The position numbers were made by a program, and so were the translations under genes. Source: a virus. From it: a DNA stretch of 40,503 bases. Below, piece by piece: positions 5,471 to 38,655 of this stretch (positions within the stretch are counted from its first letter, which is position 1; every line of letters starts with the position of its first letter). The stretch covers positions 1-40,503 of IMG/VR virus record IMGVR_UViG_3300031785_000014; one strand, written 5' to 3'. The notes below the pieces were generated by a model. The model was not told the DNA's origin. It saw only the letters and a list, made by a program, of their open reading frames with translations, and made no database searches.

Positions 5471-6287
5471 TGCTGGAATAGTCAACATAGTATAAATTTT
5501 TCTGACCCTCCCACTCTAAAATTTGACCATTTACATTGTCTTTTAAGTTCAAATCTCTGTTTACTTTGTAAAATGTGGTATGTGGATATCTCTTCATAAG
5601 ACTCAACCATTGGTTGACCCAATTATCGTGTGGTGTGGGGCCATTATCAGGTGCCAAATAGTGTTTTGTGCCTTTGTAAATATTATTGATACGACTTGTT
5701 GTAGATTTTAAATCGTGACCTATTAAATAAACTTCTTTTGCCTTGTAATACTCACACGCAACATAACCACTTGACGGACCAGCAGCCCAACCAAGGTCTT
5801 TTGGTATCATTATATCACTTAAATTATGAGACTTATCATTTTTAGGGTGTATCCAAGATAGTTTAACTTGACCAATACTAATTTTCTTTTCAATTACTTC
5901 TTTGTTCTTTTTAATTACGTGAGCAAGGCCTTCTAATTTAGAGCCGTGAAATACAAACTCTTCGGCTGTGCCTCTTTCATTTTCTGTAAAAACACCTTTT
6001 TCATTCTTTACTAATTCTAAATCCATTTTAGATATTGCACCCTCAACCATCATTTTATAATGAAAGGCAGGTACTTTTGTCCAATCTCTAAAGAAACAAG
6101 GTATTTTATATGCCACACCTTTGTGGTAGACTTCGTGCATTATACCGTGGTCAACACCTGTTAATGCGTCTGGCATAAAGTCTCTATATAATGCATTACA
6201 ACCCATAATGGTGCCTAATGGTCTTAATTTTTCTAAATCAAAACCTAATCTTGATTCACCATTACCAATACAGAATACTCTAGCCAT
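5448..6287 (-). CDS. Conserved phage protein with Rossmann-like N-terminus (DUF115/MptE-like?)
   Basis: 279 residues. It opens with a nucleotide-binding-like turn, ARVFCIGNGESRLGFDLEKL, then MGCNALYRDFMPD and SVD/GVD-type acidic strands; WAAGPSSGYVACEYY and VYLIGHDLKS lie near 180-205. I recall close relatives in many marine phages and a resemblance to the DUF115/6-hydroxymethylpterin diphosphokinase-like fold, but the reaction is not known. It lies between gp59 and gp32, overlapping the gp59 end by 8 nt, so it is co-expressed with replication genes. Confidence 0.6.
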   Translation of the reverse strand: MARVFCIGNGESRLGFDLEKLRPLGTIMGCNALYRDFMPDALTGVDHGIMHEVYHKGVAYKIPCFFRDWTKVPAFHYKMMVEGAISKMDLELVKNEKGVFTENERGTAEEFVFHGSKLEGLAHVIKKNKEVIEKKISIGQVKLSWIHPKNDKSHNLSDIMIPKDLGWAAGPSSGYVACEYYKAKEVYLIGHDLKSTTSRINNIYKGTKHYLAPDNGPTPHDNWVNQWLSLMKRYPHTTFYKVNRDLNLKDNVNGQILEWEGQKNLYYVDYSSIDKLESM

Positions 6288-6891
6288 TTACAAAAATATC
6301 CTTCATAATCATTTTAGCCTCTGTCATATTAAAATTAAGAAAAGGTTTTAATCTGGTAATCGTATGTGAGATTTTAGGCCAGACAACCTTTTCATTAATA
6401 TCTTTATCCCAATTTTTAAAAAACGCAAGATGTTTATCCAAATAGATGGCGGTTTGGTAGTTAATTTTCCCTTGAATAAGTAATCGCAAGACTCTAGGAT
6501 GTTGTCCATTAGATACGCAAAAGCCATCATCAAAAGAAATGCGCTTACGGCTAAAATCATCAGCAATCCGTACGCAATCGTCCCTAAAATGGTATCTAAA
6601 AGATTCTTTATACTTTTTATATCTGGAATAATTCTCAATACCTTCATTATCTAATAAGTTTCCTATCCATTTGTCGCCATCAATAACAAAATTACTAACA
6701 AAATAATCCAAGATATCTCGTTCATTAAAACGCTTTGATAACTTATGAAAAAAGTATCTATCTTTTCTTTTAGTAAACGTGTCCAATGTTGCATTTGTTT
6801 TACCACCATATTTTACATAGTCGTATGTGTCGGTTGTGAAGTGTAATTTAACACCAAGATACACTTTATATACATCAAAACCACCATACAT
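6280..6891 (-). CDS. 59: Helicase loader gp59
   Basis: 203 residues against 217 in T4. FDVYKVYLGVKLHF at the start, KRKDRYFFHKLSKRF near 40 and FVSNFVIDGDKWIGNLLDNE near 65 align with the T4 gp59 pattern (DKYFFQKLSEKY, FISNLVANQDAWIGD). gp59 loads the gp41 replicative helicase onto gp32-coated forks and recombination intermediates. Its ATG overlaps the stop of the small membrane gene before it (TAATG). Position next to gp33 and near gp32 reproduces the T4 cluster. Confidence 0.85.
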   Translation of the reverse strand: MYGGFDVYKVYLGVKLHFTTDTYDYVKYGGKTNATLDTFTKRKDRYFFHKLSKRFNERDILDYFVSNFVIDGDKWIGNLLDNEGIENYSRYKKYKESFRYHFRDDCVRIADDFSRKRISFDDGFCVSNGQHPRVLRLLIQGKINYQTAIYLDKHLAFFKNWDKDINEKVVWPKISHTITRLKPFLNFNMTEAKMIMKDIFVNG

Positions 6892-7034
6892 TAATGTTTA
6901 TCCCTAGTCTCATCATAACCATAATCCATAACAATACTTATAATAGTAAAAATTACGCCTAATAGTATTATACTCCATAGACCTTTATCTACTTCTACAA
7001 ATAATAAATGATATAGAAATTCTAAACCATTCAT
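6891..7034 (-). CDS. 47-aa single-helix membrane protein
   Basis: ATG at 7034 overlaps the gp33 stop (ATGA) and the TAA overlaps the gp59 ATG (TAATG). The product has one transmembrane helix (WSIILLGVIFTIISIVMDYG) and a charged C-terminus. No function known. Perfect coupling on both sides supports translation. Confidence 0.6.
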   Translation of the reverse strand: MNGLEFLYHLLFVEVDKGLWSIILLGVIFTIISIVMDYGYDETRDKH

Positions 7035-7249
7035 ACAGGTAAAGTACCGCCTTTTTTAATCTTCAATAGATTAGCGTCTAAAGCCTCTGCTTTAATTTTT
7101 TCTTTTAATGATTTTGATATTAGTCTTGTTGTTGTTTCAACTTCTATATTGTTTGATTCGCAATAGTGGACTATGGCGTCAATATAAGAAATTGGTCTTT
7201 TATCTTTTACGATATCGTTTATTTTTTGGGTAAATTCTTTACTATTCAT
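7031..7249 (-). CDS. 33: Late transcription co-activator gp33-like
   Basis: 72 residues. MNSKEFTQKINDIVKDKR, then ISYIDAIVHYCESNNIEVET, a Lys-rich helix and a hydrophobic end TLPV match the short gp33 proteins of marine T4-like phages in layout. T4 gp33 bridges RNA polymerase and the gp45 clamp at TATAAATA promoters, and such boxes occur in this window. It is the first gene of the 33-59-32 cluster and lies directly downstream of the tmRNA. Confidence 0.75.
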   Translation of the reverse strand: MNSKEFTQKINDIVKDKRPISYIDAIVHYCESNNIEVETTTRLISKSLKEKIKAEALDANLLKIKKGGTLPV

Positions 7250-7284
7250 AGGTCCATATATATCATAATTTTATTTAAATGTAA

Positions 7285-7443
7285 AGCGTAGGTGTTTCTG
7301 TTGCCAAGTACACCTACAAACTCCGTCACCTAAAAATTAGGCAGCAAGGGCAAAATTTGAATTGCCATTTAAATTGCGTTTAAGTTCGCCAACTATTACT
7401 CTCTATAAAGTTTTTCGGTAAGAGTCGAACCTACCACACCCCC
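7285..7443 (-). ncRNA. tmRNA coding piece
   Basis: Starts with the acceptor strand GGGGGUG (7437-7443) and GUAGGUUCGACUC, the conserved 5' tmRNA motif. UAAUAGUU precedes the resume codon, comparable to AAUAGUC in E. coli. After the tag stop there is an 8-bp hairpin (7310-7317 with 7288-7295). Only 53 nt separate the 5' end from the resume codon, so a normal PK1 does not seem to fit. Confidence 0.8.
7337..7390 (-). other. tmRNA tag reading frame
   Basis: From the likely resume codon GGC (7388-7390) the frame reads GELKRNLNGNSNFALAA and then TAA. The ALAA end is the classic tmRNA degron recognised by ClpXP-type proteases in bacteria. At 17 encoded residues the tag is longer than the 10 of E. 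coli. The frame starting one base later (GCG AAC) hits a stop after six codons without an ALAA end, so the GGC frame is preferred. Confidence 0.75.
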
Positions 7444-7453
7444 CATAAACACA

Positions 7454-7552
7454 CTATTTACAAAGGTCTTCATATTTTAAAGTATGTAATCTATGCTTAC
7501 TTAAATCACCTTGGTGTTTAAAAGTAAACAATTTTTTTAACCACTTTAACAT
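7454..7552 (-). CDS. 32-aa ORF inside the tmRNA intervening segment
   Basis: The segment between the two tmRNA pieces contains ATG at 7552 preceded by AGGAG at a 5-nt spacing, and an open frame of 32 codons ending in TAG at 7454-7456. The product is basic (MLKWLKKLFTFKHQGDLSKH...), amphipathic at its N-terminus. The frame fills most of the 121-nt intervening segment. No family recognised. If real, its message is the discarded spacer of a processed RNA. Confidence 0.5.
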   Translation of the reverse strand: MLKWLKKLFTFKHQGDLSKHRLHTLKYEDLCK

Positions 7553-7574
7553 ATAATCTCCTCTAATGTGTTTA

Positions 7575-7640
7575 TGGTGGAGGTGGTGGGAGTTGCACCC
7601 ACGTCCTCAATACTTATTATGCTTTATGTCAACAAGTAAT
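7575..7640 (-). ncRNA. tmRNA acceptor piece
   Basis: Contains GUAUUGAGGACG, a 5-bp T-stem (GTGGG 7586-7590 with CCCAC 7598-7602) with loop UGCAACU, acceptor strand CACCUCC (7579-7585), discriminator A and encoded CCA. It begins right after, or slightly inside, the stop of the secreted-protein gene. The 5' processing site cannot be placed exactly. Confidence 0.8.
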
Positions 7641-7641
7641 T

Positions 7642-8001
7642 CTATGTTTGCTCTTTGTGTGCATATGCTAGGTCAAAAGAGTGAGATACTATACAGCTTT
7701 CTAGTCCATCTGGACTTGTTAAAACAATAAGGTGTTGACTTCTATCTTTTGACACAAACGTATATACAAAGTAGGCGCTTGGATTTTCGGCTTTTGCGCC
7801 TTCTCTCGCTACTGAAAACGTCTCTGGATTAAAATCAAACCTTTGTATGTACATATTCACGACCTCACTAGGACCACATTGAGCAGGTAAACCTAATGGC
7901 ATTAAGCCAGCGTCTGGTATTTCTGCGTATTCGTGGTCTGCTTTTGCTTGAGTGATAAACACACCTAAGCTAATGAGCAATGCTATTATTATTTTTTGCA
8001 T
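7642..8001 (-). CDS. Secreted protein of unknown function
   Basis: 119 residues with a clear Sec signal peptide (MQKIIIALLISLGVFITQAKA, cleavage near 21). The mature part of about 98 residues has two Cys (in AQCGPSEVV and ESCIVSHSF) that could form a disulfide. No family recognised. It precedes the tmRNA by almost nothing, so both may share a transcript; a TATAAATA box lies 69 nt upstream. Confidence 0.75.
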   Translation of the reverse strand: MQKIIIALLISLGVFITQAKADHEYAEIPDAGLMPLGLPAQCGPSEVVNMYIQRFDFNPETFSVAREGAKAENPSAYFVYTFVSKDRSQHLIVLTSPDGLESCIVSHSFDLAYAHKEQT

Positions 8002-8032
8002 TTTTTCTCCTGTGAGACTTAATAAGGTTTGA

Positions 8033-8716
8033 TTATTGATTTATTTTTGATTTATTAAGTTCTTCATAATATTTATAAAAGTCCTTAATATCTTTTTCTA
8101 GTTGAGACAAATAATCTTTTTTTTGTTTCACGAAACTATGGCAACTGCCGTCTTCACCTGCTTGTAAGATGACAACTTGTTCTATTGGTTTGCCGAATAG
8201 CTCTTCATACATAATTGCATAAGCAGTACATTGCAAATAGTAATTAGTATTCCAACTATCAATACGTTCTTTGTTTGCCGTTTTGAAATCAATTACAGAT
8301 AATTTACCATTGTACTCAGCGATACAATCAACTTGACCAGCAAGTGTCAATTTATGTGAGTACATAATTCTTTCTAAACAATGTATGTTATTGATTTGGT
8401 CAAGATAAGGTTTTAAAAGTCTGAACATACCGATAGGTAAGACATCACGTATCGTTTGTGGTTCACCTTTTAAATATTGTTCAACTAGAGTATGTGTTGC
8501 CTTACCTCTACGAGCTGCTCTAGCCATTTCCCATTTAGCAGCCTCTTCACCAACATTCTTACGCCATTGTTCTAAACCTTCTTTTTTCTTGATACCTAAA
8601 ATACTGGTAACTGAAGGATAGTTTTTGCCGTCAATGTTGTAAAATCTAAATCCGTTTTGATTCATTCCCTTGGACTTTGGGAATTTACTTTCGTCTAATT
8701 GTATAAAATTTGCCAT
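8033..8716 (-). CDS. PD-(D/E)XK exonuclease (RecB/Cas4-like)
   Basis: 227 residues from ATG at 8716; an upstream in-frame TTG at 8731 is less likely. It has the full nuclease motif set: GKATHTLVEQYL (His75), Glu116, AGQVDCIAEYNG with Asp130, and LSVIDFKTANK with Asp143 and Lys145, then YYLQCTAYAIMYEE, the QxxxY-type helix. Such enzymes process DNA ends in recombination, repair or host DNA breakdown. A strong TTGACA-17-TATAAT promoter (8750-8778) drives it, implying early expression. Confidence 0.85.
   Translation of the reverse strand: MANFIQLDESKFPKSKGMNQNGFRFYNIDGKNYPSVTSILGIKKKEGLEQWRKNVGEEAAKWEMARAARRGKATHTLVEQYLKGEPQTIRDVLPIGMFRLLKPYLDQINNIHCLERIMYSHKLTLAGQVDCIAEYNGKLSVIDFKTANKERIDSWNTNYYLQCTAYAIMYEELFGKPIEQVVILQAGEDGSCHSFVKQKKDYLSQLEKDIKDFYKYYEELNKSKINQ
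8070..8077 (-). promoter_or_regulatory. Candidate late promoter TATAAATA for the secreted protein and tmRNA
   Basis: Exact TATAAATA 69 nt before the ATG at 8001, within the 3' end of the nuclease gene. The codons around it (Phe-Tyr-Lys-Tyr-Tyr) could produce it by chance. Confidence 0.4.
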
Positions 8717-36543: not shown

Positions 36544-38655
36544 TTATTGTAATGACTTTAAAGCAGATATCTCTGCCTGTAAAGTATTTATCTTACTTTG
36601 AACCGTTATTAATTTACTTCGGTGTACAGCAATTGGGTCATTGTTTGAATACGCAGCTAATGAGGCGTCCTTGTATATTTGTTGCTGTTGTAAAATATTT
36701 AGTGTTTGAAAGAGCTCTAGGTTACCATCTGGCATATTACCTCCGTTTAAAGATTTATTCTTATAAGATGATAAATCTGGTGCCATTTGATTTAGAGCTT
36801 TTGATATAATAAAAGAAGTAGCCGCAATTTGTTGGTCTACTCTTTTAATTTTGGCTGTTATTTTTGCAATAATTTTTTCTACTTTTTTACCTATGCTGTC
36901 AATGTCGGCAGAGGTAATCTTCCTATTCTTGATAGATACGTTTGTCTTGCCTTCCACAACTTCGCTAGGACTCTCCTTCTCCTTCTGTCCTTCTGTTTCC
37001 TTATCTTCAGCCATTTCTGATTTAGAAGATATAGGTTTATTCTCTTGTCTTTCCGGTTCTGTTGTCTCTTCATTTGCCTCCAGAGTATTCTCTGTTTCAA
37101 CGGCCTCATCTGTACGTTCAGTTTCAGTAGCATTAGTATCCTCTTCGTTTCTGATATTAGTTGGTTTATTTTCTATTATCTCGGTTGGACTTTCTTCTAC
37201 TAATTCCTCATCAGGTGCCTCCTCTATTGTAGGTTCTTCCATTCTCTCTTCTCTCATTGTAGGTGGTAAACTTGTTACCATATCATCAGCAGGTGGTGTC
37301 ATAACAACTGCTTCGTCATAATTTTCAAATTCGTCTATTGCTTCAGGTTCAGGTCTTCTTAATACAATTGTATTTTCATCAGCGTACTCAATCATATTAG
37401 GATTAGTCTCTATAAAATCATTCATTTCATCATCTGTCAAATAGATATCTTCATCACCTGGCATTAACATATCACCTGTAATTGGTGGTAAATCTGAAGG
37501 CATTGGCATTATTTCCATATCTACCATATTCATATCACTAGGACCGACTGGTACTGGCATAATCATAACGTCCATTAACTCCTCTACCATCTGATTACCT
37601 AACTCTTCGTAAAATTCTGTTTCTGTAATATCTTCTACTATTAATTCATTTTGAAAATCATTTACTAAACCATTTGTTTCTAACATATCGTTAAATGTTT
37701 CCATAACAAAAGTATCTAAAGGCATAATTTCTATTTCGCCTATATCGTTTTCAATAATAACTTCTAAATCTACAAGTTGGCCTGTATCAAATGCTGGTGG
37801 TAAAAACAAATCACCATTTGTTTCTTGGAAATCTTCTAGGGCTGTCTCTACATTTTGGTCAATTGATTCAAATAAATCCATACCTGTTGAATCATCTGTA
37901 AAATCTAGTGCCTCATTTAAATCTGTACCGGCAGTTGTGCAAGTACCTAATTGTTGACAGCTAGTGGTTTGTCCTAGAGTTGTAATAGATAGTTGAACAT
38001 TATCTACATCTGGACCTCTATGATAATTGTCATTATTAGAACCATCACCTTGGTTATAAAGTTCAGTTCTTATTGTGAAGTCTGTTTGAGTGTTAGGATT
38101 TTGAGTGTAAACATTTGTATAGTTTTCAAAATTACCACCATTAAATGGTCTGTTAGGGTCGTGGTCGTTTATAGTTCTTGTTTGTGTAGTTACCGTACCA
38201 TCAGCGGCCGTGATAGTTTGTTTTAATGTTAAAGTGTTTTCAATACTATTCCAAAACCAAACATCTGCTGATTGAGTTGAAGTAAAACCTTCGTTAATTT
38301 GTGATTGTGTTAAGTGACCATCACCGACTAGAGCGCTGTCTTGATACACATTATCTTCGGTATGTCCTTCAAATGCTAATACACCACCTGAAGAATCTGA
38401 ACCTGATGGATATGTAAACCCAAAATTTCCGTGTGTGTGAATACCATCTGAACCAGTTGTTGACCAATCAGTTGTAGTTGTGGTATTACCTGTTCCGAAA
38501 GTTGAGTTTGTAAGAATATTACCTGTTACCGTGATACAGGTTCGGTCACCAAGAGAATTGGTGGTACACGTTGTCTCTGCCTTACTTGTACCGTTTATCG
38601 GTAAAATCGTAAGGATTAAGAGTAAGACCAAATTTGTAAAATTTAAAACACGCAT
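36544..38655 (-). CDS. Large acidic secreted protein
   Basis: 703 residues. Signal peptide about 1-27 (LVLLLILTILPINGTSKAET), a Thr/Ser/Gly/Asn-rich beta domain to about residue 235, an acidic Met-rich region (VMIMPVPVGPSDMNMVDMEI near 350), then a Glu/Thr-rich low-complexity region (about 430-590) and a C-terminal basic helical domain. No family recognised. It is probably exported or displayed on the virion. It starts right after the coiled-coil secreted gene, likely under the same late promoter. Confidence 0.75.
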   Translation of the reverse strand: MRVLNFTNLVLLLILTILPINGTSKAETTCTTNSLGDRTCITVTGNILTNSTFGTGNTTTTTDWSTTGSDGIHTHGNFGFTYPSGSDSSGGVLAFEGHTEDNVYQDSALVGDGHLTQSQINEGFTSTQSADVWFWNSIENTLTLKQTITAADGTVTTQTRTINDHDPNRPFNGGNFENYTNVYTQNPNTQTDFTIRTELYNQGDGSNNDNYHRGPDVDNVQLSITTLGQTTSCQQLGTCTTAGTDLNEALDFTDDSTGMDLFESIDQNVETALEDFQETNGDLFLPPAFDTGQLVDLEVIIENDIGEIEIMPLDTFVMETFNDMLETNGLVNDFQNELIVEDITETEFYEELGNQMVEELMDVMIMPVPVGPSDMNMVDMEIMPMPSDLPPITGDMLMPGDEDIYLTDDEMNDFIETNPNMIEYADENTIVLRRPEPEAIDEFENYDEAVVMTPPADDMVTSLPPTMREERMEEPTIEEAPDEELVEESPTEIIENKPTNIRNEEDTNATETERTDEAVETENTLEANEETTEPERQENKPISSKSEMAEDKETEGQKEKESPSEVVEGKTNVSIKNRKITSADIDSIGKKVEKIIAKITAKIKRVDQQIAATSFIISKALNQMAPDLSSYKNKSLNGGNMPDGNLELFQTLNILQQQQIYKDASLAAYSNNDPIAVHRSKLITVQSKINTLQAEISALKSLQ

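Follow-up and report, generated by a model that had tools for sequence, protein, structure and literature searches.

In a pelagimyophage-type phage carrying a two-piece tmRNA of a kind already known, we find that the segment predicted to be removed during maturation of the tmRNA is very probably (about 85%) a small protein gene in its own right. Decades after permuted tmRNA genes became known, the piece between their two halves was still being treated as waste. In the 40,503-nucleotide viral DNA stretch analysed here (hereafter, the window), and in related phages, comparative sequence analysis establishes a permuted tmRNA, a covarying helix, a nested open reading frame (ORF) under selection, alternative states in which the intervening sequence (IVS) is empty or the gene is free-standing, and recurrence of the arrangement with unrelated genes.

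Results

The permuted tmRNA gene

On the minus strand of the window, ARAGORN calls a permuted tmRNA, c[7246,7669], with the tag GNSNFALAA, and two Rfam models match this ssrA gene (7246..7669): RF04321 (tmRNA_permuted) at 7637-7337 with 79.4 bits, above the curated cut-off of 47, and RF01849 (alpha_tmRNA) at 7682-7287 with 59.7 bits against a cut-off of 50, the latter complete over model positions 1-355, including the alpha-type 5' and 3' extensions. The first-pass annotation, made from the letters alone, had proposed a phage-encoded circularly permuted tmRNA and named RF01849 and the permuted mode of ARAGORN as suitable checks; both bear the proposal out. The gene is longer than the bounds it gave, 7285-7640, the models extending to 7669-7682.

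Read along the minus strand, the 3' half comes first, followed by the IVS and the 5' half, and the acceptor stem and T arm form between the halves. The 3' piece (7575..7639, with a model-defined end at about 7669-7682) is the tRNA-like 3' half and comprises a P2 strand, the T arm, the acceptor 3' strand, the discriminator A and the CCA, which is encoded at 7577-7575. The 5' piece (7285..7443) comprises the acceptor 5' strand, GGTTCGAC, the other P2 strand and the resume and tag region, in which ARAGORN places the coding sequence for GNSNFALAA and a TAA stop at 7337..7366. The 7-bp acceptor stem, GGGGGTG (7443-7437) with CACCTCC (7585-7579), and the tag ending in FALAA are both present as originally described, and the tag reading frame terminates in A-L-A-A. 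The third pair of the stem reads as a G3-U70 wobble, the alanine identity pair of functional tmRNA. The mature ends are predicted at 7575, the end of the CCA, and at 7443 (G1), and the fold of 7287-7640 has a z of -5.2.

The two pieces would be held together by the P2 helix, formed by the minus-strand sequences ATAAAG (7622..7627) and CTTTAT (7405..7410), a pairing that had been suggested from the window alone. Across 16 related phage tmRNAs, the seven columns of this helix are 91.8% paired, compared with 28-44% when the helix is slid, and each of the seven pairs (7/7) has changed on both strands, with 31 such cells where shuffling gives 10.4 on average. Such strong covariation supports the pairing as real.

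No SmpB gene was found in the 40.5-kb window, so that host SmpB would be needed for the management of ribosome rescue suggested by the first-pass annotation. A glutamine riboswitch has been reported in the ssrA gene of phage Melnitz (PMC9004378); in the window, by contrast, no further Rfam match, the glnA type included, was found at 6700-8100 up to E = 1, and a Melnitz-like riboswitch was accordingly rejected.

Affiliation of the phage

Gene order and protein similarity identify the window as a pelagimyophage-type, SAR11-type ocean phage, the nearest phage being Pelagibacter phage Mosig EXVC030M (MT647606). Between the window and Mosig, the ribonucleotide reductases share 86% identity, and the DNA shares 82% over the matched parts. 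The order endolysin, exonuclease, small gene, ssrA, late-transcription coactivator, helicase loader and single-strand binding protein is Mosig-like, the difference being an extra thymidylate synthase in Mosig at that place. In Mosig, SsrA is annotated in the same position, upstream of the late-transcription coactivator, which in the window is a gp33-like gene at 7031..7249 on the minus strand (PF16805, E 3.8e-23; phrog_254, E 3.4e-23). However, the IVS of Mosig is 44 nt long and contains no ORF, whereas that of the window is 131 nt long and contains one. Upstream of the tmRNA, a minus-strand gene of unknown function for 119 amino acids (7642..8001; no PHROG or Pfam family) overlaps the model-defined tmRNA start with its end. 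Elsewhere in the window, a 703-aa protein (36544-38655) likewise belongs to no PHROG or Pfam family.

The first-pass annotation had tied the phage to alphaproteobacterial hosts through the permutation itself. The link to SAR11 holds, by virtue of the Mosig-like order and proteins. Permutation, however, is not confined to alphaproteobacteria: betaproteobacterial and cyanobacterial lineages also have permuted tmRNAs, and Melnitz infects an OM43 host, so the argument from permutation to host is weak. Melnitz is a sister phage with an alpha-like permuted tmRNA, and its host is the OM43 methylotroph H5P1 (PMC9004378). A phage tmRNA of this sort is therefore not new in itself: Mosig carries an SsrA annotation, and a 2022 paper described two-piece tmRNAs in marine phages, Melnitz among them (PMC9004378).

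A conserved small gene in the intervening sequence

The IVS occupies 131 nt of the minus strand (7444..7574) between the CCA and G1. Although the locus had been read correctly as a two-piece tmRNA, the protein-coding gene within this interval had been overlooked. An ORF running from ATG to TAG (7454..7552, minus strand) encodes 32 amino acids, MLKWLKKLFTFKHQGDLSKHRLHTLKYEDLCK, and is preceded by a strong Shine-Dalgarno sequence, AGAGGAG, read at 7558..7564 of the same strand. The gene sits in the loop of a hairpin that prolongs the acceptor stem. The closing helix of this hairpin, given at first as 8 bp or longer, has 11 bp (7574-7564 with 7456-7446); it pairs the minus-strand 5' arm TAAACACATTA (7564..7574) with the 3' arm TAGTGTGTTTA (7446..7456), which includes the stop codon of the nested ORF, and it also appears in the minimum-energy fold. 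Closing-helix arms score a mean of 19.9, compared with 13.6 for re-paired arms, and none of 1000 re-pairings scored as high.

The reading frame is intact, without a frameshift, in six distinct nested sequences from independent contigs. Pairwise dN/dS values among these copies are mostly 0.1-0.4, 12 of the 21 variable columns fall at third codon positions, and the probability of remaining stop-free with so few amino acid changes is 0.002-0.02 per comparison. By these measures the nested protein is subject to purifying selection, the weight of the test being modest given six sequences of 32 codons. The 17 nt preceding the final base of the stop codon are almost invariant in the window family.

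The 32-aa peptide belongs to no Pfam or PHROG family, has no match among annotated phages (two queries) and was not found in genome contigs with one degenerate pattern. Its predicted structure is a single helix of low confidence. The peptide is probably a late accessory protein. In some phages its gene neighbours endolysin genes, which brings lysis to mind, but this is a guess, because only 22 of 117 family copies, many of them on short contigs, have a lysozyme motif within 3 kb.

Empty alleles and free-standing copies

Close relatives of the window have the same flanks around an empty IVS of 24-34 nt. One such relative (L018) matches the window at 92% identity as far as 7565, and the alignment resumes at 7454 (87%), leaving an empty IVS of 24 nt, TAAACACATTTATGTGTGCTTATG.

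Conversely, the gene occurs without a tmRNA around it. We defined a family of marine phage microproteins, SKHRLHTxKYEDLC, with the core GDLSKHRLHTxKYEDLC; the window copy carries SKHRLHTxxYEDLC after a short, W-containing N-terminus and thus belongs to it. With a first, tighter pattern, the peptide had seemed confined to tmRNAs. This was rejected when a looser pattern recovered 119 copies (54 distinct proteins) in viral contigs, most of them free-standing and outside any tmRNA. In three relatives of the window's phage (L156-L158), the microprotein gene follows the endolysin directly, between it and the exonuclease, and the tmRNA IVSs of these phages have contents that differ from the microprotein gene. 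Members of the family also lie in tmRNA IVSs with another acceptor stem (L588, L592, L655, L662 and L675), and L639 carries a further nested form. Because copies are both free-standing and nested, the gene has at times lain inside tmRNA IVSs and at times outside them. At L600 and other free-standing loci, the SKHRLHT gene often adjoins a phrog_2524 small protein of unknown function, and at some of the free-standing loci an endolysin gene adjoins it as well. In L665, a tmRNA is followed immediately, at about 5700-5800, by a gene of the window family.

Unrelated genes in other phage intervening sequences

When the collected loci were searched for permuted tmRNAs whose acceptor stem is complete, at least seven ORF families represented by two or more distinct sequences emerged in phage IVSs (123, 52, 50, 41, 34-47, 32 and 29 aa), together with several ORFs seen singly (73, 68, 61, 36, 30 and 28 aa). 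These families are mutually unrelated. Five are informative for selection and all five look purifying: dN/dS is 0.05 in the 52-aa family and 0.08-0.30 in the 50-aa family, and the 41-aa and 123-aa families point in the same direction. Variation among the 34-aa copies is slight, and the 29-aa copies resemble one another too closely for the test.

The acceptor stems around the 52-aa and 50-aa ORFs covary (GGGGGTG/CACCTCC, GGGCCTG/CAGGTCC, GGGGCTG/CAGCTCC and GGGGGCG/CGCCTCC), and in the 50-aa family the closing helix covaries as well, being 96.4% paired as opposed to 42-56% when slid, with double changes in three pairs. In most nested families, the Shine-Dalgarno region provides one arm of the closing helix and the final codons of the ORF provide the other. 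An Rfam permuted tmRNA match, in some cases of the alpha type and in others of the beta type, was obtained for 17 of 18 ORF-bearing loci, the sole miss being the 123-aa case (L260), which lies below the cut-off. For the 123-aa protein of this locus, a GNAT-like identity was considered, but the poor model (pLDDT 62) and the best Foldseek E-value (0.012) give only a hint of it.

Many of the ORF-bearing IVSs came from a pattern demanding a Shine-Dalgarno sequence and an ATG, and those loci are therefore uninformative on frequency, for which the sole basis is an unselected set of 69 distinct IVSs collected by the T arm alone. Five of these 69 contain a Shine-Dalgarno-led ORF of at least 28 aa; a sixth case, L422, is a 50-aa family member with no clear Shine-Dalgarno sequence. 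Antisense ORFs of that length with a Shine-Dalgarno sequence numbered zero in the same set, and shuffles of the 14 IVSs of at least 90 nt gave a mean of 0.18 such ORFs, with a maximum of 2.

Arrangements of other kinds were also seen. In L250, L257 and L265, a gene of the 52-aa family immediately precedes the tmRNA and is not in the IVS; the IVS of L257 has a different ORF, of 36 aa. Xanthomonas phage X1 (L692), XacN1 (L695) and Rb1 (L693) have permuted tmRNAs that are unannotated as such in the stretch shown; their IVSs, of 107-126 nt, contain no ORF with a Shine-Dalgarno sequence. In L156 (3195-3602) and L157 (3100-3507), a 112-nt IVS has an ATG frame that crosses G1 and enters the 5' piece without meeting a stop.

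Methylophilales phage Melnitz EXVC044M (MZ577097) resembles the window in having a phage permuted tmRNA with a long IVS. This IVS, of 142 nt, starts at about 1552 of the locus (L690, MZ577097.1) and contains an unannotated ORF, MFKWLSK...AKIPKYLSG. The frame, MFKWLSKTRLVVITRDYFRERNRKADAKIPKYLSG, has a relative in the nested ORF of L588, from which it differs at 16 of 22 synonymous and 17 of 80 nonsynonymous sites. Unlike the ORF of the window, the Melnitz frame has no stop within the IVS and lacks the SKHRLHTTKYEDLC end; like that of L156, it passes G1 and reaches a stop in the 5' piece. Once cut at G1, it would be stop-less.

Bacterial hosts as a control

The window shares its piece order, acceptor stem and T arm, encoded CCA and a tag ending in LAA with the alphaproteobacterial two-piece tmRNA of SAR11 (RF01849). 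However, in the four SAR11 genomes that were read closely the IVS is only 11-12 nt long and the tag is ANESYALAA, as opposed to 131 nt and GNSNFALAA in the window. Among the matches listed in 265 SAR11 genomes, the span is about 181-189 nt, too short to accommodate an ORF as well. Two SAR11 genomes, G165 and G172, have two permuted-tmRNA-model matches each. The longest IVS among 57 bacterial permuted tmRNAs measures 57 nt, and ORFs of at least 20 codons are absent from all of them; furthermore, the ORF start pattern occurs in 0 of 385 alphaproteobacterial genomes. In the phylum-wide host control, no genome scored above the beta_tmRNA cut-off, and the control thus covers hosts other than the betaproteobacterial ones.

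Discussion

These results fit a simple model of the locus. A single late transcript would be made, RNase P would cut before G1 and 3' processing would stop at the encoded CCA; release of the IVS by these two activities is drawn from what is said of two-piece tmRNAs generally in two papers (PMC11915505, PMC9004378). The resulting two-piece tmRNA would work with host SmpB, and the nested ORF would be translated either from the nascent precursor or from the excised RNA of about 131 nt. Because both cut sites flank the insert, it would cost the tmRNA nothing, and the excised IVS would act as a neutral docking site for small phage genes.

In most families other than that of the window, the predicted probability that the Shine-Dalgarno sequence is unpaired drops from about 0.7 while the chain is nascent to almost 0 once the IVS is complete and the sequence pairs with the end of the ORF, so that translation would take place mainly on the nascent chain. 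The modelling suggests, for these families, a limited time for translation before the tmRNA folds. In the window family, sequestration of the Shine-Dalgarno sequence by the closing helix was unsupported, the site being neither clearly freed nor sequestered. A more general scheme can be drawn from these observations, in which the IVS is a gene dock whose expression is coupled to tmRNA maturation, ribosomes loading only before the closing helix forms, and in which, in some phages (Melnitz and L156), the cut at G1 would yield a stop-less message and hence a substrate for trans-translation. We consider this extension less likely than not.

The nested peptides might instead act on the tmRNA system itself, for example by binding SmpB, tmRNA or the ribosome, in which case nesting would reflect functional coupling as opposed to a neutral dock. 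The predicted mutual exclusion of translation and closing-helix folding in most families is compatible with such a role, as are the position of the L665 gene and the stop-less frames before the cut site in L156 and Melnitz. However, the nested families are unrelated to one another; moreover, several of the products are, by eye, predicted membrane peptides, and many free-standing copies have no apparent tmRNA in view. Thus, we regard this possibility as unlikely.

Still less probable is that the IVS is only a longer spacer, in which the ORF arose by chance and its conservation stems from RNA structure such as the closing hairpin. Short ORFs are common in AT-rich sequence, the conserved helix takes in part of the last codons, and the near-invariant end of the window family's ORF could be accounted for in this way. 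Structure of this kind, however, does not explain why differences gather at the third base of codons or why several families have dN/dS values well under 1, nor why the same peptide is encoded free-standing elsewhere, whereas such ORFs are missing from the long IVSs of other phages and from the antisense strand in the unselected set.

That the tmRNA is a decaying or non-functional relic, with the cassette marking its inactivation, is scarcely credible: although the window scores of 79 and 60 bits are lower than those of SAR11 host tmRNAs (129-146 bits with RF04321) and ARAGORN missed the relatives L228 and L233, both relatives lie above the Rfam cut-off, the acceptor stem, T arm, encoded CCA, tag frame and P2 are all intact, P2 covaries across ORF-bearing and empty relatives alike, and acceptor stems covary around the nested ORFs of other families.

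The reading that we favor, a small protein gene within the segment of a phage tmRNA that is predicted to be removed, has partial parallels. In the open-access literature searched, we met with no account of a protein gene inside a tmRNA IVS; the 2025 tmRNA database paper mentions, in its passages on IVSs, one tRNA gene and one repeat (PMC11915505). The tRNA gene, a tRNA-Ala in the permuted tmRNA of GCA-2688965 sp002688965, is likewise a second gene inside an IVS, but as presented there it is a single RNA gene in a metagenome-assembled genome called archaeal, whereas the cases reported here are protein genes in phages (PMC11915505). Homing-endonuclease ORFs in group I introns, including those of the intron form of tmRNA treated in the same paper, also place a protein gene in a removed segment (PMC11915505). 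In contrast to those introns, the phage IVSs are predicted to be released by tRNA-type processing at the permutation, without splicing, and the nested proteins seen here are not known endonucleases.

If phages do use tmRNA IVSs to house protein genes, annotation pipelines are overlooking small genes of this class, and removal of the IVS would let one transcript yield both an mRNA and a structured RNA. Nested genes of this kind would also offer a direct test of the competition between translation and RNA processing, and the culturable phage Melnitz makes the idea testable.
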